From contig NC_092646.1 of assembly GCF_039555335.1 (NCBI RefSeq), forward strand, positions 31,139,680 through 31,203,679: DNA of 64,000 nt, read 5' to 3'. Each line of letters begins with the position of its first letter. Position 1 is the stretch's first letter. Under the pieces are notes generated by a model, which was not told the DNA's origin, ran no database searches, and was given only the letters and a program-made list of their open reading frames with translations. This DNA comes from Amphiura filiformis. Its lineage: Eukaryota; Echinodermata; Ophiuroidea; Amphilepidida; Amphiuridae. A program made the translations under genes and the position numbers. This document shows, one piece after another, positions 218-58,400 of this stretch.

Positions 218-329
218 GAATTTAATCAGTGCATTAAGTGACAAATTAAATGATTATTGGAACTTAAAAAAGGGCATTCCAGGAGAAAAGACTCCAGCGA
301 AAACACTGGTTAAGCCAGAACCAGTTGAG
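218..329 (+). CDS. Gene A exon: end of S5/ATPase module, frameshifted
   Basis: The exon follows a TTGCAG acceptor and ends before GTAAGT. It reads NLISALSDKLNDYWN, matching exon 48623-48733 of gene B, then runs into a TAA because a five-A run at 300-304 has one A too many. Length is 112 against 111 in the paralog; dropping one A restores ...KTLVKPEPVE and the phase required by the next exon. Confidence 0.85.
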
Positions 330-22404: not shown

Positions 22405-22968
22405 CCTAACTGCTATTTGCCATGCATATTCGAGTTATGAATCTGTAGTCTTATCCCCAGTCTAATTTGCTATGCATATTCATGTTAAGTTATGAATCTG
22501 TAGTCTTATCCCCAGTCTAATTTGCTATGCATATTCATGTTGAGTTATGAATCTGTAGTCTTATCCCCAGTCTAATTTGCTATGCATATTCATGTTAAGT
22601 TATGAATCTGTAGTCTTATCCCCAGTCTAATTTGCTATGCATATTCATGTTAAGTTATGAATCTGTAGTCTTATCCCCAGTCTAATTTACTATGCATATT
22701 CATGTTGAGTTATGAATCTGTAGTCTTATCCCCAGTCTAATTTCCCATGCATATTCATGTTGAGTTTGAATCTGTAGTCACGGTAGTCTTATCCCCAGTC
22801 TAATTTGTCATGCATATTCATGTTGAGTTATGAATCTGTAGTCTTATCCCCAGCCTAATCGCCATGCATATTCATGTTGAGTTACGAATCTGTAGTCTTA
22901 TCTCCAGTCTAATTTGCCATGCATATTAATGTTGCATTAGGAATCTGTAGTCTTATCCCCAGTCTTAT
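22405..22968 (+). repeat. 55-bp satellite array, about ten units
   Basis: Units begin ATCTGTAGTCTTATCCCCAG at 22441, 22496, 22551, 22606, 22661 and 22716; later units are slightly diverged and one carries a ten-base insertion (CACGGTAGTC) near 22780. Every unit contains ATGCATATTCATG. Confidence 0.93.
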
Positions 22969-26294: not shown

Positions 26295-26526
26295 TAGATA
26301 AGTATTATAAAAGTATTACCGGTATATAAGTAAGATAAGTATTATATAAGTATTATATTCCAGATAAGTATAATAGTTATCTGGAATTTGTGTATCAAAG
26401 ACGTATTAAGATGTGGGATATTTCTGTTTTGGGTCAAAACCTTGTTAGAACTATACTTGTCTTGTATGTGGTTCAATTAATTTGTCAAAACTATTGTCTT
26501 ATTTGACTAATTAAAATTAATACAAT

Positions 26527-26775
26527 ATATGTGATGCGATTAAGGGAAATGAGTCTGATGTCGATCAAAATCAAAATTCAGTCTTCAATCTTACTACATG
26601 AACTATTCTCTAAGCTTTATTTTGCTGAAAACCCCATCATAATTAGACTTATGGTTCCAGAGTTATGGCCATTGCTCAGAACAATAAAATACAAAGGAAG
26701 TTGAATACTATTATTATCTCAAAATCAACATTCCCGACATCCGACCCATTTTGCTTGATTGCATCACATATATAT
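26527..26775. mobile_element. Hairpin element with ATATATGTGATGC ends, copy 1
   Basis: ATATGTGATGCGATTAAGGG...ATGTCG at the left pairs with CGACAT...TGCATCACATAT at the right. Related to 42172-42434, which has the same AATGAGT...GATGTCG layout. Confidence 0.65.
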
Positions 26776-33240: not shown

Positions 33241-34393
33241 GCTAATCTGATACCAAAATCAGCATTTTGATGAGATAAAGTGGGGAATGAGATTGTCAAT
33301 CAGGTTATCCAACTTCATAGATTCAGTTTTTTATTAAAAAAATGTTGAAGTGGCGCCACTACAACACCAAAACTAACATAAAAACTTGTTCTTAATTTAG
33401 CAAATCGATTCGTATAATGTCATCTAGGCCTATTTGAGGCCTGGCATCTCAGGCTACCGTGAAGCTCTACTATGAGCTCAGGTTTTAGCTAAATTACATT
33501 GATACGCCTAGCTGTTGATAAGGCTTTCAATGATAATCATTTCGGAGCGTGTGAAGGATTCAAAATCACTCGGACAGCTACCGGTACTTTTGTAGGTCAT
33601 GTGGTTCTTTAGTTAGGTTGTAAAGAGGGCTGGAACCCGATCACCTTTGTAAAATTTATAACTCATATAACAACAATAAATCAAGCAAGTAAAACCCTAT
33701 TCTAATTTCAAAAGAGTTGCACTGAACTTAGGCAAAACATAGGCCTAAAGGTGTTAGACCGTTCACAAACACTTGCTAGGGAGCTCTAGGGGGCCTGATG
33801 CAAAAAGGGGCCCTTTTTTCCCCTCCCGAAGGGGGCCAGAAAAAATGACAACTTTTCCTGGAAAAAGTGAGGGCCCTGACATTTTGAGATCTCAAAGGGG
33901 GGGCGAAAAATTTTGCAATGAAATTTTTACCATCAGCCCCCCCCCCCAAGTGTTTATAGACAATGAAAATCGATCTTTTTGGCTGCCTCGCCCAACAATA
34001 GGCCTACTTAATCAGTCCTTAAATCAGAACATCATCCTAAACGAAGAACAGCTAGGGTCTCTAAAAGCACACCACATCGTCTCCCGGGCATCGTCTTCAG
34101 TAGGCCCCTTACGCCGCGCCCTTAAGTTTCCAGTTCATAGGCCTACATGCCTTCCATTACACCTTTTGCGCAGTGATTTGGTGTACTGCGCCCTTAAGGT
34201 GAGTGTGTACACAAGTCACTGTGTTTGCGGATTTAATAGGTAACTGTGTAAACAATAATATTACTAGCTATTACTGACTTCATGCATGAACTGATGACCA
34301 ACAGCTCGGGCAACAGCTACCATGCAGCTACCAACACAGTGACCGGTTACAACATCTGACATTTTCGAGAATTGCGAGAGAATAGGAAACAAA

Positions 34394-34432: not shown

Positions 34433-37400
34433 GTAATCATTTTGTCTATGTTTTGTCACATCACATTGAATGATTGATTGACTGGTTCACATTGTAGGCC
34501 TATGTATTATCTTCGACCAGTTGGACTGGTCCCCGACCTGTTAACGTTGTCACCGGGGTTGTCACTGTTTTCACCCGGGGTTTTCACTCACTTTATTTCA
34601 TTTTCAGACACATCCGAATTACCTGCAATCGAATAGTACCAGTCATAAATGGCCATTCAGTGCGGTGGCAGAATTAATAGGTAAGCTTATTTTTGGCCTT
34701 GTATAATTTGGTCAATAAATTCTAAGCTAAAGCGAATGGCAAAAATAAGCTGATATCCTATCATTACAAGCTGATTACAAGTGCATCAATAAATCGATGA
34801 GCATTGCCTTCCGGTTCTGTTCTCACAGGTTGTCTACTGCATACAATGTATATGCCTACCTTGGTTATAACAGAGAAGATCCTCTGGTTGTAAAAATTTG
34901 ATAACTATCAAATTTTTTTGTAAATTGGATATGAAGAAAAATGACCAAAAATTTAATAACAAACATCATTATAATGATTTGATGCTTCCTTTTTGAACTC
35001 CTAAGATGTCTGATGTCATGAATATTGACCAAATAGAGCTTCACAAATACAGATTGCATATTTTAAACATCAATTTTTCACAGCATCATTTTAACAGATG
35101 GAATTAGAATTCCTTGCAAATCCTATAGGGGAATGCAATCTCAAACATGGACATAACTTTTCAGTTTATTTGGTCAATATTTCAAAAAAGAAATTAGTGT
35201 AAGGTATTCTCCCCAAATATCAACCATTTTAAGGGATGGGGTATGAACGTTTGGACAGTATTTATTGTGGGACATTAGAGCACATCAGACATATCGAATA
35301 ATAATAATAATAATAATCGACTCTTATATAGCGCTTTACATCAAGTCCCTTAGCGCTTAAAACATGAATAAACAAATAACAAACAATACCTACACAATAC
35401 AACCTATAAACAATTTATGCATGTGATATAAATGAACAAAGTAAAACATGAGATAAATCAATTGTCACAAAATGCTAGAGTAAACAAATGTGTTTTTAAG
35501 GAAGATTTAAATTGTACAAGAGTCTTAGAGTTTTTTACATTATATGCATTCTGAATATGAAGAATGTCCTGATGATATCAAATAATTTTGATTTTTTTTT
35601 TTTTAATTCGCAATGTAATACACATTTTATGGCAAATGATTAAAATTGATATCCATATCTTCAATTGATCGTCGGCTTTTCCTCCCAGCTACATACACTT
35701 TAAGAATATATCATTAGATTTATAAAATTTACTTTGAGGACTGTTATATCAAAAATGTGAAAAATATCAAATTTTAATAATTTGTCATAAAATTTGTATT
35801 ATATCATGAATTTCAAAAAATGAAAATTATTTGATATCAGAAAGACATTCTTCGTATTCAAAATGCAATTCGATATGTCTGAATTTTTAAATTATGATAA
35901 TATGTCGAACTTTGCTCTGTTGACCTACAAAGACAAGAAATTTGGCCGATCCCAGTTAGGTGCAAGTTGGGACATTTGTAAACATTACAAATATGCAAAA
36001 AAATCAGGTTTGAAAAAAATTAACCAATTTCATATTATAAGATCGTACATTATGGCTTTAAGCAAATATTGAATTTGACTAGAAGAGAAATACTTGCAAC
36101 TTTACCAAAACAAGTAAAATTTACACAAATATGCATTTACTTGAAGCAGTGAGTTTCCAATCTTGTCTCATGTCAAGTTTGGCAGTCATTCATGTACTAC
36201 CTAAATAAGGATTATAAGTATTTGGTACTTTGCAGGGCCACGATTTCGTCTTGGTTTGCGGGAATCAAAATCCATCATAGTCACTGCACTTACTGTATGA
36301 TGTACAATGACAGAAGTTAATTCTCAACCGAATCTTATGAGAATTACAAGAATCGATTCGGTGGTTCTCGTCGAAATCTAGGCCCTGCTTTGACTTCCAG
36401 GATAGGCCTACACATGAAACTTTGCCCCAATTGCGCACATCTGGAGGGTTTTTTAATTGTTTTGTAAAATCTTATGTAGAACAACCCAAAACTTCTATTA
36501 ACGAAAGTCCTTTTATGGGGGTCAAAAAGTCTGATTACGTTCTCTATTAAATGCTACATGTACTGATGAAACAGCAACAAATATACCCAATTCAAAACAA
36601 TGATGCATGCACTCATAGCATCCAAAGAAAGAAAAGAATGAAGAATCCTTGTTTGTAATGTGACCACTACCAATCCATCTTGAAATGTGTGTGTGTAGGG
36701 GGGTGCATACTGTCAATAAATAGCTGAAAAGAACCAAAAAGTGAGAACTTCTCAAGATTTTCTCTTGTGTTTATATTTACCCATTTCCCGGGCCCATTTC
36801 TTTCTATGTACGTTTCATCTGTGTGCTGTTTCAGTCAAGCATGGTAAATTTAATGCAAAGCAGTGTGTCTTACAGACATTTCAAATAATAATTATTGATT
36901 TGATTTGAAATCATTTTGAAGCAACGACTGCACGTGGAACTGGAACGTCAATATCATACTTCACTACTTCAGTAAATACAAACATTTGAAAATTATATTA
37001 TTAAATTCTTAAAACAAGATCAACTTTGACCGATGTTTTAAAGAGGAAACCATAGCCAAAAGCAGTTCTTCTGGGATGAACCAAACCTGTCTGGTTATCA
37101 AATTAATCAATGACAAGGCTATCTCTGAATTTGTGCTAATTGATGCAATAACATTAAAACATCACTTAGCACAGGTCTGTCAAATTAGGAAATTATCCTG
37201 TCACTGATTAATTTGATAACCAGGCTTATTTGGTGTACCCCAGAAAAACTGCTCTGGCGGGGTTTCCTCTTTAACTACTTTATGTGCTTATTTCAAACGC
37301 TGTTAAAAATGAGCACCACTCGCCTCGCTGTTAAATTGTAATTAAAAATGTCCTCTTTTTTTGCAGATAATGCGTACGATCCAGACGCACATGCTTCAAA

Positions 37401-40400
37401 CTTGGATATTAATTACGAATCGTTTGGTACTCGTCCATGTCTGACGTTTACTGATGATGGCAATGGACTGGATGCAGAAGGAATGCATAAAATGTTTTGG
37501 TAATTTTAGGTGGTAATGTACCCCTCGATAAATTTGTGACTATTTTTGCATTTTTCTCAAAAATAATAACACACTGGTAACAAAAGGTATGTATATTTTA
37601 AGGAATCCAGTTGCTACACTGGAATTTCAGTGACTCAAGACAAGCGGTACGTTATTTATGATCAGAAAAGAGGTGCCGCTAGGATGTACTCTATTTCTTA
37701 ACATATATAATGAACCACTTGCCTTGAATCACTGAAATTTCAGTGAAGTAATTGATTCCTTGCCCCTATAATATACATAACTTTTGTTACCATTGTGTTG
37801 TTATTTTTTGAGAAAAATACAAAATTAGTCACAAAATTTATCAGGGGGTGTAGTACTCCCTTAATTATGAGTCGTTTATTAATCATCCATGCATAAGTTA
37901 CTGACAACGGGTTGGATGCAGAGGACTAGACTTCTCCGTAGTCCACTTGCCAATTGTGCACTACTCTGGCTATTACATTTAAGCTTAAAACTCTGATTTA
38001 ATTAATGAGTGCACAATTGATAGATTTTCACAACTGATCTTTTCAGTCACCGTGACGCCTCTGTTTGTTAGCTTCCCAAGTGGACTACTGACTTTGCCTT
38101 GAGAGTTAGGCCAATTTCTGGCCTAACTAAAATTGGTGATGATGTAATGCATCTTTAAAAATGAATCTGGCTTAAATCCTCCCGACGCGTACTGGTACCA
38201 TTATAACTATACATGGTACACAACTATCTAGGGAATGCAGCGCTTTTGTGCTGGTGGATGAACGTATGCATCTAGCGCGTATTGTACCACCATGCTTAGT
38301 CTTGTGGTTAGATTTTATTGATAAACAAGTATGATTGACAGTGTGTGAGTCCGGGTAAAGTTCTGCTTAAAAGTGAAAGTCCATAGTCGGTTTTTCGGAT
38401 AATAAACTGGCAGATTCTAAAATTAGAATTGTTCAGTATTGAAGTGTCATTATAATTATGCCATTATGATATGTTGCATTCAATAATATAAGCCTACAAT
38501 GAGGGCCTATACTTTACTTTTACTGTCACAAATATAATTATATAGCCTAAACTTTTTCATAACCATTTTATACTAGTATTTTGATGTACTAAATATCAGT
38601 ATAATTTCGAGTTCAACTGAATGCGTTCATCATGATTAATAACATTTTTATTTATCAAAAATCGACTATGGCATAGTCTAGCAGAGGACATGCATTAAAT
38701 AACATGTATCTAATTTTTATCTTACACCTTCTTTCTGTAATTCATTAAACATTTTTTTGTGGCAATTTTGTGCAAAATGTGTTGATTTTGCACCCCTGAA
38801 ATTCACTTTGCCCTCCAATCCTCGAAAAAAATTCCTGGCGCCGCCACTGTAAACATTGATGATACTGCAAGTTTGTTTGGCAAAACATATCTTTGGGCAA
38901 AATAAGGAAGTTTGATGAATACAGAGGATGTGTTATAAACTACTCTTATTCAATGGGTGCGTCTTGTAAAGAATTCACGTAATTTGATTGGTTTTCTGGT
39001 GTATAATATCTCACAATAGTTGATAGTGATATTAGTCAGGGTGTGCCGCCACTTAACGGCGGCACGCTTGTTGCTCCTCAATGATCGTAGCGATAATGCG
39101 TTCGCAGTAATACACATGCGAGAACTAAAACGCGATTCGGCGGCTTAGATGTTCGTGATGGTTTCGTTTATTTAAAACAACGGGGATGTCCTCACAAAAG
39201 TAACGTTATTTATTTCTGAAAAAAGGCAGTTTTTCTCGCAAAAATTACATTAAAACTGAATATCGTAGTGGATGCCGGCTGCGCCGGCATCCACTACTCA
39301 AAATATTGGCCAGCCCATCCATTATGACACGATATTGGATAGGCAAAAGACAAAATCCTATCTTTTATTCTCTAATTAAAAAAAGTTGGTAATGGTGAAT
39401 CCAACGGATGAGGACACAAAAGACATCAAGGATCAATAATGATACAAGAGGATACCGTAACTATGAACAACTGGCAGACTTGTAGTACCCGTACTCGTAC
39501 TCGAGTCCCAATTTCCGTACCCGTACTCATGGCTCCAGACCTGTACCCGTACCCGCACCCTATTTTGGGTTCGGACCCGCACCAGATTACTCATGGCTTC
39601 GGACCGCACCCATACCCATGGCCTGGGACCCGTACCTGCACTCCATGGTCTGGGACCCGCACTGCACTCATGGCTCGGACACGCACCGCACTCATGACGG
39701 GTCCCAATGCTACAAGTCTGACAACTGGAATGAAAAAGGGCAAGGTACACCAACTTGATGTGGGAAATCAAGTAAAATACAGACAGTACGTAGAGGGGGG
39801 GGGGGGAACAAAAACAGCAAATGTAGGCATTAGAAGTAGGTAAAGTTCGATAGCCAAAAATGACCAGTTCCAAGGCCCACAGAAAGAAAAGTGATGAAAA
39901 TCACTGTGCACATAAATAGATATGGTAAATCAAACAACCAAATCTAGGCACAAAAACAGGCAAAGTTTGATGGCCAAAAATTGACAAATTCCAGAGCCCA
40001 CATAAGTGTCAGGAAAATGGTACAAAAGTACACTGGAAGTGATGAAAATTACTGTGCACGTAGCAGACAAACAAAACCAAACAGACAAAAAAAACCCAAA
40101 AACCAAACAGACAAAAAACATTTTGTTTCCCATGTCAAGTTGGTGTATGCTCTTTTCTTTCCAGTTATAAACTATACTTTGTTGAAATCTGTTAAGGGGC
40201 TTATTGCTTCAAAAACTGAAAATTAGATTACGGTAGTTGCTTTCTGGGGATTGGTTGCTGGCAGAAGTGTCCTGCCCTGTGCATTATGGGAAATGGTCTA
40301 TCTATTGTTAGGGAATTTTAGCTGACACAATTTTTGTCTGTGGAGCACATTATTTGTTTTCATGTGGTTACAGGAGTATTTCATGATCCTTGCATCCTCT

Positions 40401-43400
40401 TTTTATGAAAATTTCAGTAGGTACAATGTATCCAGGAAAAAGGCCTATTCCCAAAATGTCAGTTGATTCTGATGTTGCAAATTTGCGAGTTATGCATGAT
40501 TATGTGTATTACACTGCTCCATAGGCCACTGTTGTAATTTTATTCTGGTACACCAGAACGTAAATTCAAATTTGATGCTAGTTTTGCTAAATGAATTAAT
40601 CAGCAAGAAAGTTTTTTGTATAAACATTTATGTAGCCAGAGGTTTCCAGTGGTATAAAACTCTCAACATTTTTTGAGAAAAGTGGGGGATGAGGCTGTGG
40701 ATCACGAAATGCCCTTTTAAGAAATCATTAAATTCAAAATCCTGGCTAAACATGGGGCTAAACCTTTTTTTTTTTTTGGGAGCAGACTATTTAAGCACAT
40801 TTTGTTTAAATTTTTGTCCAATATAATAAATGTCAAATATTTAATTCTTTGCTTAACCTTTTTACAGTCTTGGTTATAGCCACAAGAAGGACATTGATGT
40901 GCCCAAACATCTTGCCGTGGGCCAGTACGGCAATGGCTTCAAGTCTGGCTCCATGAGACTAGGCAGGGATGCTATTGTCTTCAGTATCAAGAACAATACA
41001 AAGACCATTGGGTTCATGTCGCAGACATTCCTGGAAAACACCGAAGCTGCCACTGTAGTGGTCCCTATAGTGTCGTGGAATCTGGCAAATATCCTTTTTT
41101 GTTTTTCAATACAATGCACTTGGGCTTTGAAGTACATGTAGTGCTATGTTTCATCTAAAGTCTGCACAAAAAGTAACGCAGCTGTTATTTATATACGCCT
41201 ATAGCTTCAGAACTAATACTTGTTTTCACAATATTTCAACATTAAAAGGAGGATGATTTATTTTCGCGCAATTCGATACCCAATTTGTCCAATTTTGTTC
41301 ACTATTAACAATACAGCAGTGTTTTGAAAGAAAAATACCCGAATTTAAAGGTTGCAGCTATTTGTATTGATTTGAAGTAAGCGCCAAGATAATGGCGGGC
41401 TTTACATGCTGCAGTGCTGGCATAATAACCATTGATCGCTGTAAACGGCAACTTTTAAATTCGGGTATTTATCTTTAAAAGCACTACCGTGTCATTAATA
41501 TTGAACGACATTTGACAAATGGGGTATCAAAATGCACGTAAATAAATCATCCTTCTCTCTATGTTGAAATATTGTGAAAAGAATGATAAGTTCTGAAACT
41601 ATAGGCGTATTTATAACAGCTGCGTTACTTTTTGTGCAGACTTTATGTTGATCAATATAGCCTTAAAGGGAGTCTCTGGCAATCACAACATTATGCCTTA
41701 TAGTGACCCATAACTCATATTGACCATAAAAACGAATAAAAAATGCATCTCTCAACACGCGATATTCAAAATTCCCAGGCACAGAAATTGTCGAGTGCAA
41801 TGACGTCCAAGTAATACAATGAAGGCTGACGACAATTGAGCACAAATAAACATTACATCATTGCACTTAGACAATTTTGACGTGGGAATTTTGAATATAG
41901 TGTGTTGAGAGCTGACTGTTTTTATTAATATTTGTTTTTATGGTCAATGTGCGTTTATTTTAAATAAAACCATGTGATTCGTGCTTGATAATTATTTTTC
42001 TAACATATAAGGCACAATGTTGTGATGATGAGCTGATTCACTTCCTTTTTTTACACCAGGTGACTATTGGGTATAACATTTATAGAAAGTTTTAGCAACT
42101 GAAAAATTCAAGTCGGTTTTGAAATAAATTTGGCTTCTATGTCTTATTGCACTTTTTGACTCACCCTGTAAATATGTGACAAGATCAAGGAGAATGAGTA
42201 GGATGTCGCTAATATTGATTTAGAGATATTGGCAAAGAAAGTGTTAAAATTCTTTTGTTTTATATTGTTTTCAGCAATTGATAAATTGACATAACTTCGT
42301 AACGAAAAGTCGTATCAACATGGGGTTTTCAGTTTCTGAAAGCTCTAAATGTCCTCTAAAGATATATATGTAAAACTCATTTTCGACTAGGGTCGACATG
42401 TGACTCATTCCCCTTGATCATGTCACATATATGCAAAGAAGGAAGCCCAGTTACACTTAGCTAACTTTGTCACATTGAAATTGTCTATACAGTAAAGTTT
42501 GGAAGTTACATTGTTTTATCAATTATTTGCCCTTAAGGGTAGACGAGGTATTGTTGGTCGAAGCAACCTAAAAATCGATTTTCATTATCTAGATCAATAT
42601 ATTATTGAAAAATAACACCTTGATGTTTTGCAAAAGTTCATTCTGCAAATCATGTACTTCGCAAACCTGCTTAATTTATTGTTGTTAATGAGTTACGTAC
42701 GTTTTACAAAAGTGTTGTTGTTTCAGCTCTCTTTACAACGTAACTCAAGAACCGCAGCACCTATAAAAGTATATCTATGATATTTTAATTCTTCTACACA
42801 CTCGCTATGAATTGAGTAATACAGTTTTTGCCAAAGCTCACTACCATTCGTAAGATGCTGTGAACTACCAAATCACAACAGTTTAAAATAATTTTTTGCC
42901 CTTAACAGTGTTTCTCACATCAAATAATTCCCAGTGCAGATGCAGAGCCCAGTTTGCATGCCATCTTAGGACATTCTATCTTTACAACCACCAAAGAACT
43001 GTTTGAACAGTTTGAAAAGATCAGTGAACAGATGAACGTGCACAAGAGAACAAGGAGGATGAACAGTGAAAAGGTCAAAGGAACAAGGATAATAATCTAT
43101 AATCTGAAGAAGTGAGAATTCTAAGTGTAGTCACAGCTGGTCAGCTGCTGAAGGGAGTATCCCATCATGCATTGCAGTGTATCTGCTTGCTCCATAGCAA
43201 ATGTAAACAAAAAATAAGTAAGAGCTGCTTTAATATTGAGAACTACAAAAAATGTATGGATAGTTTCACAATATACTTACAAGGTCATTTTTTTTCAAAC
43301 AGAAGTGAAAGTTTAAGTGAAAGATTTTGTGTGCACTTTCTATGGCATGTGCAGTCATATTATAGTTATGGTACTGCTAAGCATAATCATGATAATGGGA

Positions 43401-46400
43401 TACGGTTTTCAGCAGCTGTGAAGTGTAGTAAATTTAGACAGTATGATAGGTTTTTGTACATGGACGTGGTATGTGAACATGTGACATACACCGCTCGCCC
43501 AATGATGAGCACAGGGACCTATATCTGATACCCTATGCTTGCAGCTCTGTTGAGTGCGAGGCAGTGATCGACTGGCAATTCTTTGTTAGCGTTGTTTCCC
43601 AGCCCTGCACTCTATGTAGCTGTTCGCTGGCAAACTTTGAAAACACCCCTTTGCATCTCATTTCACGAACTTTTCAGGCAAAAAATACACCTTTTTTTAG
43701 CAATTTCATAATTTTTTTTGCTCTTCGACAATGCCCTTATGTTGTTGAAATACAAACAGTAGCTCAAAGCTTTATTGTGAATGTTTTGATGTGTATGCCT
43801 ACCCATGGAGCGCAGGGGCCAGGGTTGGTTCCATGCAGGTGGTCACGCCATCGTGGAACATGCTGGTTGAGTGTCGTAGGTGTATGTCTGGCGCACAATA
43901 TGGGTACTAGTATATAAAACAACTCACGGGAAGTACTGGGTCTGTCTGTAACATCACAGGTCTTTTGAAAGATTTGGTGATCAATTTCAATTAGTCCAGA
44001 TTTGAGCCATTCTCACATCTCGTTTTGCCTTTTGAAGAGCATCCAAGTTCCATGGCATATGTGGATGTAGGGTGACTGTTAGTGCGTGCCTTGAAAAGTT
44101 GGAAATTGTTTCAATATTAAATCCCCAATTGAAGCCATTTGGTACATTTTGTTTCAATTGACTATAAGTGTTGAATGATGTGTCAAAATTAAGTAAGTTA
44201 TTTTCTTGTAATATAATGTCAGTGATGCAAGCAACCGTCTAGAATTTGACTTCATGAAGGACGGGCATGATATCATCCTCGCTGAGGAGTATGACTTGAC
44301 ACACCCAGTGGTCAGTATGGATGAACCAGATAATGATAGTGACATACCGGAGCATACTTATTCATTGAGGGTAAGTTTTAGTCCATCTGTTAAAGCCATA
44401 ATGTTTAATTTTGGTCATATTTTACTTTTATTCTTTGCCAAACATTACATAATAATAAATATTAGTAACAACTGTCACAGACATGTCCAGGATCTAGGGC
44501 TTTCAGAGTTATGCTGGGGCTTAATGGCTAAAATTGCCAAAAACGACTGATTTTACATGATTTTTAACAAAGCTGCCCCCTGGACAAGCCACCGACTGTT
44601 AAGGAGGTTTTCTGATCATTTTAAGCTAAAATAATGAGGTAAAATTAAATAAAACCATTTAGCCGCTTTAAATTGTGGAGCTCTGGAGAAATTGGTAGAT
44701 AAAACTGGCGACTGTAATTAAAGCACTTCTGGCTTAGGTTTTCACAGGGTATACACCGTAGGGTATTACAATCTCAGAAAAAAGTAGAAATTAAACAAAA
44801 TTGAGGATGTCCTTGTAATCAAATCAGCACACATTGCTGCATGATATTTGGGACTTTGCATTATACTCTTATTAAGGGAAGGGGTATGAGCGTTTGGACA
44901 GTATTTATTGTGGGACATTAGAGCACATCAGACATATCGAATTGCATTCTGAATACGAAGAATGTCCTTCTGATATCAAATAATTTTGATTTTTGAAATT
45001 CGCAATGTAATACACATTTTATGGCAAATCATTAAAATTGATATTTTTGATATTTAACAGTACTTGAAGTAAACTTTATAAATCTGATGATTTATACTTA
45101 AAGTGTATGTATGTGGGATGAAAAGCCGACGATCAATTGAAAATTTTGACCTTTCGTATTGAAGATATGGATTTTTTTTTCCCAAAACACACAAAAAAAT
45201 AGGTCTTTTTGGGAAAAAAATCCATATCTTCAATATAAAAGGTCAAAATTTTCAATTGATCGTCGGCTTTTCCTCCCAGCTACATACACTTTAAGAATAT
45301 ATCATTAGATTTATAAAATTTATTTCGAGGACTGTTATATATCAAAAATTTGAAAAATATCAAATTTTAATAATTTGTCATAAAATTTGTATTATATCGT
45401 GAATTTCAAAAAATGAAAATTATTTGATATCAGAAAGACATTCTTCGTATTCAGAATGCAATTCGATATGTCTGATGTGCTCTCATGTCCCACAAAAAAT
45501 ACTGTCAAACGCCATAAACGCTCATTCTAGATCCCTTAATATGGATGTAGATCGGAAATAATTAGATTGAATAAATAAAAGATCCTTGTGTAATATTTTA
45601 TCAATTTCTTTATTAACAGTGTAAATAATTTTACAGATTTTTATTACTCTTCCCAGGCTTACTGCTCTATTTTGTATATGAAACCGAAGCTTCATATCTA
45701 CCTTCGGGGGAAAAAGGTCCAGACCTTGTTTGTTGAGAAGAGCCTTAGTAAAACCGAGAGAGATACGTACAAACCAAAGAACATCAAGGTATGTGAGTCC
45801 CTTGTGGAGGTGGTAGGGGTGGGTGTAAAACATCAATTTTGGTAACATTTGGGGAAGGATGCACAACTGGAATTCTGAAAGGAACCCATGCAGAAATATA
45901 CCAAATTTAATGAAAAAAGATCTAAAGTGGTTATAAAGTGATGTTCACATACTGGGTCCAATGGTCATTTGGAGTCAACGTGCAAAAATGTCATTATGTA
46001 AGACTTTTGTTTGAAAATTGGTCTCATAAATGGTTCAAAGCCAATTGCAACTATTATTATGTTCTCAAAATGTTCCATCACTTTGTATTCAACACTTTTC
46101 ACTCTTTCAAATATATTTTTGTTTAAACAAATTGTCCAAATTTTTATAGTTTTTATAGTTTTTTTTCCTAATTTGTCCCCCCCCCCAAGAAAAAAACAAA
46201 CTGCATAGCGAGACTATGGTCACCACTTGTGCTGTATAGTTTTGTGTCAGGTTATTTGCATATTAATACTAATTTGCATATTCTTTGTATTTACAAACCT
46301 TTATTGTGGGAGCTACCTTTTAATATCAAACCACATGATTCTAGTTGCAGATTTGTTAAGACAATTTTGAAAAAGCAGCCCTTCTCTTCTGAGAAGCCTT

Positions 46401-49400
46401 GGGATATATGCATTATGCTCTATGTCATAAAAGGTATGCATCATGAATCAGACAGGAGCTCTTATAGGAGTTGGCTCAATAAGGCTGAGAACTTAACAAC
46501 ATTATAACCAATAGGATAAAGAAAAGCTTTCAGTGGCATTGGTTGAGAAACATTAAGAATAATTCTCTTTGAACCGCTGAGATGATTTCCCCGGGATGAT
46601 TTCATTTTGTTTTTATAGCTTGTTCCAGACAAACCAATCAAGATAACATTTGGTTTCAATCCCAAGAAGAACCAATATGGCATGTTAATGTATTATAAAA
46701 ACAGGCTCATCAAACCCTATGAAAAAGTTGGATACCAGTTGAAGGTGAGTGAACAGAACCGAGTGGTATGGGGCTGTGCAATAATTATGAGCCCCAAAAA
46801 TTGCTTGCCCCCTTTTCGGCCCGCCAAAAATCTTTCCTCCCCCTTTACACATGCCAAATTTTTTTGATCCTAATTTGTAAACCTTAAATGGTCTAGATAT
46901 ATATGTTGCGAGCAGGAAAATTTGCATATTTTAATAAAAAGGCTAAAAAAAAACGTTCTAAAAAATCTTAGGAAAACAGTACGAAAAATTTTACCCTCCC
47001 CCAGGCTCATAATTACTGCACAGCCCCTAAGTGCAAAAAGGCCCTATCTGTAATGGCTGCCCCATAAACATTTTGCCTGTGACTTTAATAATCAATGAAC
47101 TTGGGGTCCAGAATGTTATAAAGAACACATGTTTTTTCAGGGTGCACTCAGCTATATTTTTACCTCGGTGTTGTCTCTTTTCACCCGAGCTTCCATAGAA
47201 CAATAATGTTTAAACCTATAAAAACATTTCAGTTTTAATCCTAAAATGCGAAATAATGGGGTTATCCCTGGGGGTTATCCTTAGTGTAAGAGAGCACAAA
47301 ATACTAATAGGATTAGAGTTAGGGTTAGGGTTAGGATTTAGGGTTAGGGTAAAGGTTAGGGTTAGGGATAGGATTAGAGTTGGGTTTGTTTGGTATTCTC
47401 TTACATGAAGGATACACCAAATAATGTGATTACACATGCTAGTCACATAATTTGTGGGATGCGGTGCACACATTCAAGTTGCATTATCAGGGGTAGGGCT
47501 GGCAGGTTAAAACAAGGGGCAGTGATAGTTTGACCCCGGTGATAGTGCGACCCTTTTCCAGGTAATATGGCCAGGGCAAGTTGATACAATTTTAAGGGCG
47601 AGCCCTAGCGCATGTTAAACAATCTAGGTTTTCATACCTAAATACATGTGTGTTAAGTAAGATCATTGTATTAATGACTTTAATACCTAAATAAAACGGT
47701 CTGTAAAAATTGATTCGTGCACAAAATATGTCATGCACCGCTATTATCAGCTCTCACAGTCTATGATGGTTTTGGTACATGCAGTAATTCTGATCTCATG
47801 CTAATTTTTTTTCTCAGCCTGATCAACGTGGTGTTGGTGTCCTTGGTGTAGTGGAGTGTAACTTCATAGAGCCAACACACAACAAACAAGACTTCCTGAG
47901 TTCCAAAGTTTATAGGTGAGTTATTCTGTGCAGCTATAAGATAATTGCATGAGAAATTTCTAATTTTTATAGTATTTCTTTATCTAAGAAATCCTAATTT
48001 CCTTCCAAATGGTCAAATTTCTATACAAATGTCCAAATTTCCTGGGAAGGGGCATCACTGGATCCAAGAACAATTATCCCTGCCATGGAAAACTATCTCT
48101 GACACAGAATATGTTGTTTGGTAACAAATGATCAGGCCAGGCCTAACAATTTTCATGGCATGAAATCCTGTGGCGCTCCTCACAATTTGCCCTTCTCCGC
48201 ACAATAAGACTTGGTTCGCGCAATTGGGACTTTTTCTGCACAATCCACCAATTTCATGCCAAATTTCTGCAAAATATAGGTGTTTTCTACTTGCTTTCTG
48301 CCATTTTGCTCAAGAAAAAGGATTTGACATCCTCGATGTAAACCTTGCCCAAGCGCTGTTCTTCCAAACCAGTGGTGTCATCAAAACTCTGTGCAAATCC
48401 CAGTGAAATTTTCCAGTAAATTTAGGGGTGGGGTACGAGATGGGTAACAATGATGGGGTAGGGGTTGAGGTTAGAGGGGTGGGATGAGGGTAAGGGAGGG
48501 GCAGGTTGTGGGGGGAGCATATAAATACAATAGATTTGGGTACCAGGTCTTATTGTTGGCATCTCCTCCTCGCATCAAATAGTTAACACCTTTTGTTTTT
48601 ATTTTCTTTAATATCATTGCAGTTGTTTAATAAAGGCATTGGGTGAAAAATTGAATGATTATTGGAATGAGAAAATGGGCAATCCAGAAGGCGAAATAGT
48701 GGACTTGGTTCAACCAGACCCAGAAGAGGACATGTAAGTAATCTTATAATAAGGATTTCTTGAGTTACGTCAGAATAAACATTGTTTTGAGACAGCCGTG
48801 TATCTATCACTCGCCTTGTAGAACATGAAAGATACTATTATTTTTAATGTTGAAGCATTAAAACAGATCAACTGTAATATCATGTTAACCCTAACCCCCT
48901 AAGGGCTTTTTGGCGACGGGAAGGGAAAGAAGGAAAGAATAAAGAGAGAAAAGCAGGAAAGAAGTTGTTTGCTCTGGGTGGGATTCGAACCCGAGACCCC
49001 TCGCATGCCAAGCACTCGGTCGGCGACACTTTGCCACGGGTCTTGGGCTTCGCTGGCCAGCGAAACCGTGCCTATATATCACTTAGGGCGATTGCGTCAT
49101 CACACCACGTGGGATGCATGCACGAGCAGCGCATATATCAAGTAGTATTTTGTAGTATTCAGGCGGGTTAGGGTTAAGGTAAAGCTTGCAAGGTGAAAGT
49201 GATTTTTTGAAATATTAGTCCTATTAAGTTCATATTTGGTCACAGTGATACTCAGGTGACACCAATTTGAAAAATGGGTGAAAGAAAAATTCTGCGCATA
49301 CGGTTGCCATGGAAACGGCGGCCATCTTGGATTTTAAGGATATCAGATTGCGCGCAGTTTTTTCTTCACTTCCAATTATCTGAAATTCATGAAATTTGGT

Positions 49401-52400
49401 ATAATTACAGGGTATGTATACCTTTAAACTCAAATGGAAAGCTTTTTTCGAAAAATCAAAATTAATTAGGGAAATGAGGACGTTAAAATTCAAATTACGC
49501 ATTTTTGCGCCCAAACTTCGGAAAAAATCACTTTTTTTCAAAAATTGAGCAAAATTTTAAAAAAGCTCTCCATTTGAGTTTGAAGGTATGTAACCTCTAC
49601 ATACATGCCAAATTTCATTGAGCTGTGATATACAGAAGTTGAAAAAAAGCTGCGCACAAGGTTCAAACAACGCAAAACGACAAAATGGCTGAAAATGACA
49701 TTTAAAGTCTAGAAACACTGAATTTTGGAAATTGGGTCAAATTATTTAACTTATCAATTTAAAATTGTCAAAAATTTAAATAATTGTTAATCACTAAAAA
49801 CTGTCAAAAAATCAGGTCATTTGTACCTTAAATTAGCTTAATTCTAGAAGAGTGTTCAAAATAAACTCCTGAAAACAATAAAATACATAAGAAATTCAAC
49901 GCATGTAAAAGGATAGGAAAATAACAATTTCGTCTGCGTGTATTTCATTTTAATCAAGCAGCATTTCAAAACCGAAAGTCGGATTCAAATGAAATAAAAA
50001 GCATTCGATAGCTAAGATTGTACCGTAATTTCTGGAATATAAGCCGCGGCTTATACGTTAATTTTGGAGCCGCCGAAAGTCAGTGCGGCTTATACGGCGG
50101 TGCGGCTTATACAGCAACGTTTGAAGAAGAAAAAAATACAACGAGAGAGAAAAAAAATCTCCGGCTCGGCCGCTAGTGAGTGAGGCAATCGACAAATCGT
50201 TCAAAGTCAAGGAACATCGTTTACTGTAATCCTCTTAAGCCGTTTCATTCTCTATGGACTGTTTGGTTTACCTGGGGTGATCGACAGCATAGACAGTCTC
50301 ATCGATTGTCCGAGTATTATCAATAGACGCCGCCATCATCTACTCTAGTCATGATCGCATTCATGCATTGATTGGAATATTCCGGGGATTATTCATTCAT
50401 TCATTCTATTTTTATACCCGAACTGTAGCGATTTATTAAATTAAAGTTTCGATTATGAAAATCAAAAAATTTATTGTCAATGTTTCTTGCATGTTTAATT
50501 TGAATCTTGAACAACCTATGACGTTTGAGTAAAAAGAAATGATTGTTGTTGTTTTTGTAAATGTTGCATCTTTCATGTTTGATTGATCCTTGAAAACAAA
50601 ATATGAAGTGCAGGCCTACCTTCATTCAACCCACAGCCGACTTGCGAATAACTTGACATATGCTCCACATTTTGTAGTAAATCACTGAACAACAATTATT
50701 TTATACATCTGACAATTCACATTGCTGCTGAGAGTGATGACATTTTGTTTTAAAATGACGTCAAAAATGAAATGCACATCTAATATTCACGGAAAGTTGC
50801 CCGGGAAAGTTGTTATTTCTGGTATTTCACACATTGGGTATTTCCCTCATTAATTATTAATTATTCATAAATTCATTCATACACGATCGTGATTCTGTCC
50901 ATGCGCACGCGCACCGCATGTTGACCACTCCTTGGATGGGATACAACCGGTTTTTTCCTGTTGCACACAGCACATGTTTACACAACTCAGTATTCAATTA
51001 AAGTTTGGGTATAAAATAAATATATTATTAATGTTTCTTGCGTGTTTAATTTCTTTCTTGAACAAATTTATCATTGAAGTTTTGAGTCCAAAAATATGAT
51101 TGTTGTTGTTTTTAATATATTATAAATGTTTATCTTTCATGTTTGATTTTTTTAAATGACTCCAAAAGTGAAATGCCCGCTTGCAGATAAGTTTACATTT
51201 TTGGTAAACAACATATCGCAATCATGTACTTCATGCGGGGTATTTCCCTCATTAATTATTCATAAGTTCATTCATACGACCGTGGGAAACTCCCTATTTC
51301 AGTGTGCTTACCTGGGCATATGCCTCGTGGTTAGCCTCGTGGGTGCTGGCGCCGGGGGCCGGGGTGATGATGTCACATGTATTTTGTGTTGATTCTGATT
51401 TGTACAAAAATGATCTGCAGATGGGTTTTGTTTCATCAGAGAAAATGTCTGGTTTCATATACAAATATTTTTAAATAACTTTATGGTTAAGAAGTTTATT
51501 TAAAAAAATGATTGTAATTGTTTATTTTTTTTAAACTTCCACCATAAAAGTCTTGTATAAAAAAAAAGTCGGCCATCTTAAATAATGTTGTGGCGTGGTG
51601 AATGAAATCACGGTAATGTATAATGCACGCTGTACGAACTGTGATCGATTCAAAATCCGACTTCTGGCAATTTTTTTCCAATCTTAATTTTCTATTGAAG
51701 TCAATGTTAATAGGCCTACATTTATTCATCTAAAAAGCCTAAATAACAATGCTTTTTGTCTCTTTTTTCTTATTCTGACGAATTTACGTTTTTACACCCT
51801 TGTAGTACTAGCATGCCTAATTAATTAAACTTTTTACAGCAATAATATTGCATTTCGTCAGGAGCGGGAGAGGGGTCAACGCACTTAGCACGTGCTAAAG
51901 TTTGCAGCGCGAGCGCGGTATACCATATTTTGGTCACACTCAAAATCATTGATACGTGAGGTCAACGCACTAATAGCTAGTGATGGTTTGGCCTATTGGA
52001 TTATTTAAAAAATATAAAATAGTTTTAAAAAGTATATTGTATGCAAGAATGAATCGATACGCAACATGTTTAAAAATGTCACTACTTCCCCTGCCGATTA
52101 TTGAATGAACAACATTATAACAAAAAAGATCGATTGGATTATTTGGATAGCAGTGATCATACACGACACGGCCGATTAGTGCGTGCTGATAATTTTAAAA
52201 AGACATCAACATGTTAATTTACATGCAGACGCGAGGATTTAAACAAAATAAAGTGTTTTAAAAAAGGTAGACTTTCATTATACATGTACAAAATTTGTTT
52301 TAATATAATATTGGTTACTTAAAACAAATAATTATCACACTCCTCAGTTTGCTTTGTAGCGCCACAATCGTGACAATAGCGCATTACAGTGGTGTATGCA

Positions 52401-55400
52401 TGTCAAAAGTCGGCCGTCCTTGGTGCGGCTTATATGGCGGTGCGGCTTATACGCCGACATTTGAATCTTATTTTACCAATTTTTCGGACCTGCGGCTTAT
52501 ACTCCGTGCGGCCAATATGCCGGAAATTACGGTACATTTTTAAATTATCAAAAAACCTCAAAATGCAATTTTTACCCCTATTTCCCGTTTTCACCTTGCA
52601 AGCTTTACTTAAGATATATTGTACATCCAAAATAAAACAAAAAATTTACACCTTTCTGGGGGGTGATGGGAATCTTAGTTGGGAGTGGGCAGGCTCTGAT
52701 CGATCTAAAGTGATGGGTGTCAGCGCAGGTGTATAAAATGCTTGGTGTTTGTGAGAACAATGTCAATTTACCTTAACTTTTCGTTGTAGTAAAACCCCAA
52801 ATCTGTGTACACCCCATGTACACTAGCTAATTTTAATGCATAATGCAAGTGGTATCACTCTGCTGATTCTTAGTTTTTTCAGCAAATAAATTAAGTTAAT
52901 TTATACCCATAGCCTTTCAACAGTACACATTCCCATGGGTAACCAGTTGAAGAGGTTCTAAACATGCGGGTGTACCGTATTTGTGTGTTAATTTATACTT
53001 CAATTTCTTTCTATCTGTCAAACAGTCATCCAGACGATAATTGGGTACAATGTGATCGTTGTGACAAGTGGCGTAAGCTGCCACCAAACGCAAACTTAGA
53101 AGTCGTGGAACAGGAGGATGTAGAGTGGTTCTGTGAGATGAACCCGGATTCACACCATAGGTGAGTGGATAAAATTAATGTGATACAAATAATAACCAGA
53201 ACCAGACTACTGCGTTCAAATAAAAAGTTGCTAGCATTTTCCTTTTGTGAGTGTGTGTCGTCGTCCATTTCACATAACCGCAGAGTAAGAAGTTAGACAA
53301 CATTCTTCAAACTTACCAAATCCTGGCGTGGATGTTGCTTTATTTGTGAGATAATTAATCAATAACTTCATTTCAAATGGACCGTTTCACATACATAAGA
53401 GTGTATGTTCTAAAAGCCATTCCTTTACACATGTTTGTCAAAGTGGCGTATCTTGCCGACCCTAAAAATTGCTGTTTCACAAAATGACCTATCGTAAAAA
53501 TTTTAATAATAAATAATTTGTATAATCTTTCAGCCGTTGTGACATAGCAGAAGAACCAGAAGACGTGGATGAAGCAAAACCTTCATACAAAAAGACATTC
53601 AAGAAAAGACAGTAAGTCAGTTTAGTTTAAGCAGGATGATGTCCATTGTCATTCCATGCTATTTCCACCTTATATATGTGACACGATCTGTTTCAGGGGG
53701 GCCAAAGGAGGCGTTTTTTTTAATTGAGTTACTATAAGTATTATTACCTTATACAAACATTAGGCTATTAAACAACATACATTAAAAACACCCAAGGTGT
53801 AGCATATTGGTTCTAAAGTTGTTTGTCCAGAACATTTACTTTTTGACTTTTATGGCAATTAATCTACAAATTATATTCATTCATTCATTCATTCATTCAT
53901 ATTTTATTTTCATCAATCATCAAAATGCATGTAATACATAAAAGCCAACAAAGTAATACAAAATATATAAAGCTAGAATATTAAATACAATCAGGAATCA
54001 ATAGTATAATCAAGTAGTTACGATTAAATCAATATAATGTAAGTCAATACAGTAATATAATAATGCATGCTTAAGCAGACTACATTTTAAATGACAGTAA
54101 TGATAATAATAATAATAATGATGATGATAATAATAATAATAACACAAATAATAATAATGATAATACAATATAGTACTGCATGATTAATTATTAAGCAAGA
54201 TTAAGCAAGCATTAGATTATACAAAATATATGAACGATCATTGATATAATGAATAGTCAAATTTAATACGAAATATGAGGCAAGAATTAATGGTATAATT
54301 ATATATCGATACAATCTATTAGTAACAATTATATCAGTATAATATAAATAAATACAACAACATAATAATGCATGCTTATCAGAATACATTTTAAATGGTC
54401 ATTGATACAATAAATACAAAGTATAGTAATACAATTCTAAACTAGGTTGTTGAGCAAAGGAAATTGAGAGGGAAAAGAGATGATTGACGAGGACTCTGCT
54501 AAACGCGGGGCGTGAGGTGCAGAGACCTCATTGACACACAAACATACACATACACATATCCGACAGAAAGAAAAGAAGAGAAAAGGATATAAAAGGGAAG
54601 AAAAAGAAAGAGAAAGAGAAGAATAGTGAAAGTCATAGCTACTAATTACGTCAAGAGCATAATGGAAACAAACGCCTACGGTTTCTGATGATGATTCTGA
54701 TGATGCAGTATTAATGTGAAGTTCGGTGGCTACTATTGTAGGAATGCAAGCAGTAGAAGATAATTAAAGCACACAAAGGGAACACTGGGGGAACACAATA
54801 CAAAGATTGGATAGCAGCGAAGTAGAATTTAAAAGAATCAAGCACAACTACCGTAAAGCTTCGAGGGTAAACATGTAGTGTCTATGCCAAATCATATTCA
54901 CCGATGAGACATTTTTTCAGCCTGCTTTTAAAGGCAACATGTGATACAGAGTGTTTGATGTTAAGAGGAGAGAGTTCCAGAGAAGTGGTCCTCTGGTTTT
55001 AGAGGTGTTACCAGCAAGAACAGATTTAGTAGGAATGATGAATGGCTCATTAGCATGTCTGGTGTTATAGGGGTGAGCAAATACATCAATGTTGAAAAAA
55101 TTGTCATGAAGAAGATCAGGAGGGAGTAGACCATTATAAAACTGAAACATAAAAGAACCAAGTTGAAGCTTATAGATATCATAGAGTTTTAGAGTTTGAA
55201 GGGAGGAAAATAGAGGATCAGTGTGAGCAAGCCATAGGGAGTAGGTACAAGTTCTAATAACTCTCTTTTGAAGAAGGAACAGTGAATGTAGGTTAGAGTT
55301 GTTGGGGTCAGCCCATACCAGGGCACCATAGGAAAGATATGGGAGGACAAGGGAGTTATAGAGAGTAAGAATAGAAGATGAAGGGATGAATTGCCTGACC

Positions 55401-58400
55401 TTACGGATGATGCCGTTGTATTTGGAAACTATTTTGAAATGTGCTGTGTGTGGGAGTTCCAGGAAAGGTTGTGATCTATAAGCAGGCCTAAGAATTTGGT
55501 AGTGTTTACTTTTTTCAATAGGTGTGCTATCTATTTTAATATCATAAGAAATATCAGGTTTATTGTTATGTTTATTTTTGAATACAATATAGTTCGTTTT
55601 CTTTATATTTAGTGACAATTTATTTAATTTAAACCAGTTAGATATTATTTTAAGTTCTCTATTTACAGTTAATTCAAGTAATTTAGGGTCACGGTGTGAA
55701 AAAAGTATATTGGTATCATCAGCAAACAATATGAAATGTGGAGTAGATGTTGTGCAGGGAAGATCATTGATGTAGAGTAGAAAAAGAAGAGGACCCAAGA
55801 TAGATCCTTGGGGGACACCGCAGGTTACATCAGAAGAATAAGAACAAGAGCCATTAATCATGACTTTTTGGCTTCTTCCAGAAAGGTAGTTTTTGACCCA
55901 ATCATTAGCAAGACCTCGAATACCATAATGATACAGTTTGTCAAGAAGGATTGTGTGGTTTATGGTATCGAAGGCCTTGCTAAGATCCAAAAAGATACCA
56001 ATTGTGTGGAGTCTCTGATCTAGATTATCAGCAATCCTACAATAAAGATCATTCACTGCCATGTTGGTGGACCTTCCTGGTCTAAAACCATACTGATGTT
56101 TAGTTAGTATATTGTTGCGGGTGATAAAATCTTCGATCCTAATATATACAATTCTTTCAAGAAGTTTGGAGATAGTTGGAAGAATGGAAATGGGCCTGTA
56201 GTTGGTAAAGTCATGTTTGTTACCAGACTTGAAGATGGGGGTAACGTTGGCTTGCTTCAGTGTTGATGGTATGCCTGTGGAGAGGGATAGATTAAAGATA
56301 TGTGCAAGTATGGTGCTGATGGAAGGAATGATTTTTTTTAGAAGGTTGTTGCTGATGCAGTCATTACTACTACTGTGACTGTTTTTAAGTTTAGAAGTTA
56401 ATTTAATGATCTCCTCTGAGCATGTTGGAGATAAAAACAAACTATCAGGGCTATTGTTTGAAGAAAATGTATGATTAAACTCAGGCGGTGGATCAGGAAT
56501 CTTCTTAGCCAGTGTTATACCTATATTAGCAAAGAATGAATTAAATTGATCAGCAATTTGTTTATTGTCGGTTAATTTAGAACCATCTTTATCAACGAAA
56601 AACTCAGGTAGTTTAGATTTTTTATTTCTGCCTAATAAGTTATTTTGTGTTTGCCACATTCTTTTTGTATTATTTTTATTATCTTCTATTTTAGTTGTAA
56701 TATAATTTCTTTTGCTAGTTCTAAGAAGTTGGTTTAAATAGTTCCTATAATTAGTATATTTATTTTTATTTTCCGAATTTGGTTTTGAAATGTAAGTTTT
56801 GTAAAGTTTATCCTTGGTTTTAATAGATTTAATGAGTGCTTTAGTTACCCACGGTTTTTTCGGAGTATTACGTTTAGATATTTTTTATTTTTAGTGGGCA
56901 ATGAATATTAAGAAGGTCATTGAATTTATGAATGAATAAATTATACGCATCATTGGGGTTAGAAGAACTTTCAACAACATGCCAATCAACTAGAGAAAGC
57001 GCATTTTTTAAACCATTAATATTGTTCGGGTGGAATTGACGCTGTTGGTGGGTTTGCGTAGTTTTAATTGGCTTGTTGTTGTCAGTTAGTTTAGTGATGA
57101 AGACAGGGAAGTGATCGGACAAATCCGTGACAACAATGCCAGAGTTGATGATACTAGTGATGTCGTTTGTAAATATGTTGTCGATTAATGTTGCAGAGGT
57201 GTGTCCATTTTTGTTGGTTTTAATGTGGGTGGGTCGACGAGTGATGGTTGGGATGTAATCATGCGAGTAAAATAAATTCAGGAATTCAGAAACCTTGGAG
57301 TTGCTCTCGTGAACAAGAAGATCAATATTGAAGTCACCCATAATAAAACAAGTCTTTTTCTCTCTAGAAACAAGATCGAGTGTGTTTGTTAGAGATGATA
57401 TAAAATCCGCAAAGATGACGTACTCTGGTTTGTAGACAATGCCAATGATGACCTTTTGGGAGTTATGGGTTGTTTCAATAAAGATAGAGTCGCAATGTTC
57501 GGCAGTGATGTTTAGATCAGTTCTGATAGAATAATTGATGCTTGACTTGATGAATAACGAACAACCGCCACCGCGACGACCTTTTCTAACACAATTTTCA
57601 ACGGTAAAATCACCAAAATCACAAAGCAAGGAGTTGTCATCAGAAGTAAACCATGTTTCTGAGAACCCGTAAATGTCAAAATGCTGATTTAAAACAGAGA
57701 GATAGTCAATGACATCATTAGAATGTTTAGCAAGGCTGCTGGAATTTAAATGAAAAAGAGAGAAATTACAGTCATTTAGGCTAGGTTGGTGATTCTGGAT
57801 GGTACTTGAGTCATAGTAGGTACAGCAGGCTTCATTATTAACATTAGTAACATCAGTATCATCAGACGAACCATCAGACGGGTGTAGTGAGCTATTAAAG
57901 GAAAAGGGATGGAAAATAAGATCAGAAATTAGTTCAGAGTTAAAAGAAGTAGGGTCGGACATGAAAATATACAATACAAATCAGTATGAAAAAAATTAGC
58001 TTAATTATACAAAAAAAAAAATATATACAATGAATTAAATATACCTAAATAAAATAGGTATAACCCAGTTTACTAGGAGTAAAAAAAAACCATAGATGTG
58101 ACTAAAAGCTTGAAAGATTTGGATCTCATGTTGAATTTGGATGTGTCAGACTCATCCATTATCAATGAAAACTGATATACGCACTAAAGGTACCAATCAT
58201 TTTGATATAGCTTGTATAATTATGTGTGTAAAATGAATTTCAAATTTTACATTTTATTTCTCCCCAGGCTAGCGGCTCAAGTGGCAGAATACCAACGCAA
58301 AAAAGATGAAGATGCCCGCAAAAGACAAGAGGTAATCAGCTATAAAGTGGTTTATTCATGAAATTACTAGATGATTGCATTCAGCCCTATCTATGTTTGT

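Follow-up and report, generated by a model that had tools for sequence, protein, structure and literature searches.

The coding sequence of a MORC gene in the ophiuroid Amphiura filiformis raises a question of splicing: how is an exon of the GHKL ATPase module joined to the next coding segment, 1.8 kb further on, when a usable GT donor seems to be lacking at its end? The question was addressed within a window of 64,000 nucleotides (64 kb; contig NC_092646.1), which is the whole stretch of DNA that was analysed. The features described below are collected in Table 1.

A MORC3/MORC4-like gene and its neighbourhood

Exons were located with a human MORC3 sequence as the bait, which gave collinear matches (34614-53606) on the + strand. 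A MORC3/MORC4-like gene was recognized on this strand, extending at least from 34608 to 53606, while neither the exon with the start codon (N-terminal) nor the C-terminal part was found with this bait. When joined, the 11 exons comprise 1443 bases, i.e. 481 codons in a single frame without stops. Nine of the ten introns have GT-AG termini, and the one at 41089-42918 is the only AT-AC intron. A dead gene copy was considered and appears unlikely, given the 481 stop-free codons and the intact splice termini of 10/10 introns.

Among structures, the best match of the product was MORC3 (5ix1; E 2.7e-134, 452 bits), followed by MORC4 (7k7t; E 9.7e-121, 407 bits) and, at a distance, MORC2 (E ~4e-61, 210 bits). 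The product thus appears nearer to MORC3/4 than to MORC2, in a ranking by bit scores in which MORC1 had no entry among the matches. The Pfam domains HATPase_c_3 (residues 17-133), Morc6_S5 (253-389) and zf-CW (417-464), all scoring over the Pfam cut-offs, follow one another in the order GHKL ATPase, S5 domain, CW zinc finger, as in MORC3/MORC4-type ATPases; HATPase_c stayed under its cut-off (22.6 vs 26.4).

Table 1. Coordinates of the predicted features, counted from the first base of the window.
Feature	Position	Strand	Remarks
MORC exon, first found	34608..34680	+	start codon would sit in an exon further upstream
MORC exon, GHKL ATPase	37367..37499	+	DNAYDPDA...
MORC GHKL exon	40868..41088	+	directly 5' of the AT-AC intron
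AT-AC intron, read as minor-spliceosome (U12) type	41089..42918	+	1830 bases, phase 1
U12-type 5' splice site	41089..41097	+	ATATCCTTT; motif match
Foldback (inverted-repeat) element in the intron	41156..41645	+	arms 41156-41355 and 41448-41645
Second foldback element in the intron	41682..42026	+	kin DNA at 58608-58815
Further inverted repeats in the intron	42167..42524	+	42169-42432 related to 26525-26774
U12-type branch site	42898..42906	+	GCCCTTAAC; branch A = 42904 or 42905
AC 3' terminus of the intron	42917..42918	+	
MORC exon	42919..43111	+	directly 3' of the AT-AC intron; ends ...TRIIIYNLK
MORC exon	44223..44370	+	ends ...HTYSLR
MORC exon, S5 domain	45657..45788	+	
MORC exon, S5 domain	46619..46744	+	
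MORC exon	47818..47915	+	
MORC exon	48623..48733	+	donor GACAT/GTAAGT (slash, exon end)
MORC exon with CW zinc finger	53026..53160	+	
Post-CW MORC exon	53534..53606	+	3' end provisional

Upstream, on the same strand, a further and diverged MORC gene is truncated by the window start, so that its 3' portion (222-5167) is included. Its recognizable parts are LISALSDKLNDYWN (222-329, 52.8% identity), a CW finger (2235-2351, 62.5%) and a post-CW exon (5102-5167, 54.5%). The two MORC genes form a tandem pair. The ATPase exons of the upstream gene would fall outside the window, so that the AT-AC position is out of view there. Between two of its exons, a foldback element is present (1719-2150), whose 126-nt and 53-nt arms are 98% and 94% complementary, respectively.

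Repeats were also found elsewhere in the window. A segment of the AT-AC intron (42665-42771) has related DNA at 33585-33690. A LINE-like retroelement occupies 54917-57980 of the - strand, with stop-to-stop frames matching RVT_1 (655 aa) and an endonuclease (368 aa) that overlap by 11 bases. A 55-base unit is repeated in tandem at 22432-22965 (9.6 copies, 91% matches), and a 68-base segment occurs three times at 6294-6652, spaced by 145 and 146 bases, the first copy sharing 74% and 66% identity with the later two. Within the window, Rfam returned no RNA family at the gathering threshold and ARAGORN returned no gene.

Borders and signals of the AT-AC intron

The upstream exon terminates with ...AATCTGGCAA at 41088, ATATCCTTTTTT starts at 41089, and the downstream exon restarts with ATCAAATAATTCCC at 42919. 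The first-pass annotation, made from the letters alone, had placed a U12 donor directly after the exon, and this is what was found: ATATCCTTT agrees with the U12 consensus at 9/9 positions. The branch motif GCCCTTAAC agrees with the consensus TTCCTTAAC at 7/9, its first two positions being GC and not TT. The final base of the intron lies 14 bases from the branch A if this is 42904, and 13 bases if it is 42905, which is close to the optimum of 11-13 nt quoted in an excerpt of PMC3584512, where either A of the branch consensus is described as usable. The same annotation had put 13 bases between the branch motif and a CAC about 1.8 kb downstream of the donor. Both the motif and the CAC (42916-42918) are in place, but the gap is 9 bases; the figure of 13 is the number of bases from the second branch A to the last base of the intron. 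In a check for a polypyrimidine tract, AGTGTTTCTC, ahead of the AC, was short and mixed, and TTTTTTGCCCTT was located further upstream, overlapping the branch site. Both splice sites were judged by consensus matching.

Removal of the sequence between the AT and AC termini joins the exons at 41088/42919 in an open frame (481 residues), in agreement with the continuous frame proposed earlier. In the protein, this junction falls between ...VPIVSWNLA and NQIIP.... The claim that the intervening protein segment has the length of its MORC3 counterpart was borne out as well: 28 residues run from PIV to the HS of HAILGHS both in the product and in MORC3 (5ix1, 6o1e), which align without gaps, and 29 in MORC4 (7k7t).

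Taken individually, the motifs are not rare. In the 64-kb window, RTATCCTTT was observed twice (1.92 expected) and YCCTTRAC seven times (7.16 expected), and loose donor-branch pairs unconnected with the exons of this gene were found on both strands. The placement of the motifs was assessed by dinucleotide-shuffling the intron 20,000 times while the flanking exon sequence was retained. RTATCCTT appeared in 31/20,000 shuffles within 110 bases of the start of the tested stretch, and YCCTTRAC followed 8-20 bases on by AC or AG appeared within 90 bases of its end, also in 31/20,000. Both motifs in frame were obtained in none of the 20,000 (product estimate 8e-7). The motifs alone are therefore at chance level, whereas their in-frame placement at both exon borders exceeds chance.

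Alternative joins between the two exons

Joins were enumerated for upstream exons ending at 41020-41139 and downstream exons beginning at 42880-42989, allowing GT/GC-AG or AT-AC/AG ends, and were ranked by the summed alignment score to the MORC3 and MORC4 stretches. There were 56 open joins, 25 of which were listed. The join 41088/42919 ranked first of the 56 (score 478). Among the 25 listed, it was followed by an AT-AC join at 41079 (467), which is devoid of the U12 donor motif, and an AT-AG join at 41090 (462). Potential major-class sites were scored with approximate U2 donor and acceptor matrices, on which the splice-site bit scores given here depend. Between 40990 and the in-frame stop at 41139-41141, the top GT/GC donor reached 1.8 bits, whereas seven donors of the gene's GT-AG introns had 4.0 to 12.3 bits, which upholds the earlier view that the GHKL exon ends without a usable GT donor. 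Inside this exon there are 33 GT/GC sites, the top ones being 40924 (4.2 bits) and 40916 (3.8 bits). On the acceptor side, a U2-like site, TAATTTTTTGCCCTTAACAG (42889-42908), scored 8.2 bits, within the span of 2.4 to 10.3 covered by the real acceptors of the gene. It overlaps the U12 branch site and stops 10 bases short of the intron end; its use together with 40924, the top-scoring GT donor of the exon, would cause a frameshift according to the coordinates. A twintron was rejected, no GT donor beside the AT donor exceeding 1.8 bits.

The U2-like acceptor is central to two of the alternatives. One of them, the strongest contender of the major class, is a GC-AG intron running from the GC after 41084 (CTG/GCAAAT, the slash marking the exon end) to the AG that ends at 42908. 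The resulting join (41084/42909) is open and in frame, its score (460) is the highest of any GT/GC-AG join among the 25 of 56 open joins listed, its acceptor has 8.2 bits in the approximate matrix, and its product, with 30 residues from PIV to HS, exceeds MORC3 by only two and MORC4 by one. However, its donor reaches only 0.4 bits, as compared with the 4.0 to 12.3 of the seven GT-AG donors in the approximate donor matrix, and is without G at +5. Moreover, a full U12 donor and branch motif at both borders would have to be coincidental, at the product estimate given above, and this reading is considered very improbable.

An equally slight chance is given to bridging of the gap by GT-AG splicing, be it across a single intron or by way of a small additional exon. 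The acceptor ending at 42908 matches the real acceptors of the gene in strength, but no GT donor above 1.8 bits (approximate matrix) occurs from 40990 to the stop. Among the 25 of 56 open joins listed, two-exon GT-AG joins reached at most 441, where the donor scored -7.2, and the runner-up had 437 and a donor score of -0.9. Extra exons of 6-120 bases were sought with the weakest real sites as thresholds (donor at least 4.0, acceptor at least 2.4). The sole upstream donor was 40924, and the sole open in-frame model loses a conserved 12-residue stretch together with the PIV segment.

Minor splicing to an AG was the third alternative, with the donor at 41089, the 3' end at the AG of 42938-42939 and the exon starting at 42940. 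The join 41088/42940 is also open and in frame, yet its product drops seven residues relative to MORC3 and scores 447 vs 478. The AG ends 34 bases past the second branch A, well over the 11-13 nt optimum, and AT-AG ends are termed disfavoured in the same excerpt (PMC3584512). We regard it as scarcely likely. Least probable of all is removal of the AT-AC intron by the major spliceosome: U2-type AT-AC introns exist and, as excerpts of PMC2831892 and PMC6717393 state, AT-AC ends alone do not settle the class, but here a full U12 consensus donor is accompanied by a branch motif at a minor-class distance.

The interval 41089-42918 is therefore read as an A-type (AT-AC) minor intron of phase 1 in an apparently functional MORC3/4-like gene, with a probability of roughly 0.93. 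This reading, which is drawn from sequence, is based on the 9/9 donor, the branch distance, the open MORC3-like frame, the first rank among 56 joins and the 0/20,000 shuffles; it is further favoured by the phase, which fits the U12 bias, and by an AT-AC intron implied for human MORC3 (see below). Counting against it are the two deviating branch positions, the U2-like acceptor on the branch site with its open GC-AG product, the Rfam scan of the window, which gave no RNA family, and the chance-level motif counts. The U12 AT-AC class assigned in the first-pass annotation is thus supported, in that the tested site features are present and the GT-AG and GC-AG joins score worse.

Known minor introns and the predicted role of this one

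Minor introns of MORC genes are mentioned in two of the sources. In PMC8280824, on CENATAC, the legend of Figure 5 (the title of which refers to A-type minor introns promoted by CENATAC) gives Morc3 as the example of the effect on retention, in HeLa cells, of AT-AC and GT-AG introns; this is taken to mean that an AT-AC minor intron is present in human MORC3. Its likeness to the intron described here is one of gene family and AT-AC subtype, as implied by the legend, the excerpts of PMC8280824 giving no position within MORC3. An excerpt of PMC10853781 lists four conserved U12-type introns of the mouse, that of Morc4 being one. In this case the family is shared, the likeness being drawn without a stated subtype or position, and CG precedes the mouse donor whereas here the exon ends with AA. 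In the main-text excerpts among the matches listed, the MORC3 minor intron was found only in PMC8280824 and that of Morc4 only in PMC10853781. The term MORC has no occurrence in the main text of PMC10639083, PMC6717393 and PMC6865273, nor has MORC3 in that of PMC4506483; in PMC5387049 the only name match is Morcos, and PMC7084890 mentions MORC2 in connection with a protein mutation rather than with an intron.

The intron resembles A-type minor introns generally in its donor, branch site, branch distance, termini and phase 1, and differs from them in the G and C that replace T and T at the first two branch positions and in the inverted-repeat stretches that cover 1193 of its 1830 bases. According to excerpts of PMC7367187, U12-type introns are biased against phase 0 and AT-AC introns are without consistent bias at -1; because of the latter, the bases before the donor were not counted as evidence of class. 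An AG before the donor is reported in PMC10853781 (excerpt) to be incompatible with U12 splicing, with respect to GU-AG introns. In the excerpted text of PMC2831892, vertebrate U12 introns are described as very stable, conversion to U2-type as rarer for AT-AC than for GT-AG U12 introns, and U12 intron loss as massive in several invertebrate lineages. In view of the human MORC3 legend, the Morc4 listing and the stability of AT-AC introns (PMC8280824, PMC10853781, PMC2831892, as excerpted), the occurrence of such an AT-AC minor intron in a gene of MORC3/4 type is of a kind already known and is no surprise. Relatives in which the intron might be seen were also sought in viral contigs, where 45 pattern matches contained no relative, and in genome contigs, where 82 pattern matches contained one, in a Bacteroidetes bin; being a bacterial gene, it is uninformative on the intron.

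In minor splicing, the donor is contacted first by U11 and later by U6atac, while U12 pairs with the branch site, bulging an A. At this locus, U11 followed by U6atac would pair with ATATCCTTT and U12 with CCCTTAAC, the bulged A being either 42904 or 42905. Joining of the exons at 41088/42919 would restore a GHKL ATPase like that of MORC3. With the intron retained, the frame continues for 16 codons into it and then meets TAG (41139-41141), because of which inefficient minor splicing would be predicted to yield less full-length MORC protein. The sites are presumably used in cells, and it is reasonable to suppose that MORC expression depends on the efficiency of the minor spliceosome. A wider proposal is put forward tentatively and is rather doubtful: the AT-AC position may be that of human MORC3 and may have been AT-AC since early animals, which would make minor splicing an ancient means of controlling MORC3-type ATPases that one or both of the tandem MORC genes have preserved here, with the U2-like acceptor that overlaps the branch site giving a broken product if minor splicing fails.

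Knowledge of minor splicing itself is unchanged by the finding. In practical terms, a gene finder restricted to GT-AG introns would break this MORC gene within the ATPase domain. The locus adds a chromatin ATPase to the genes with a well-supported AT-AC minor intron; a human relative of this ATPase apparently has one too, and the locus could help to date the AT-AC intron of MORC3-type genes.
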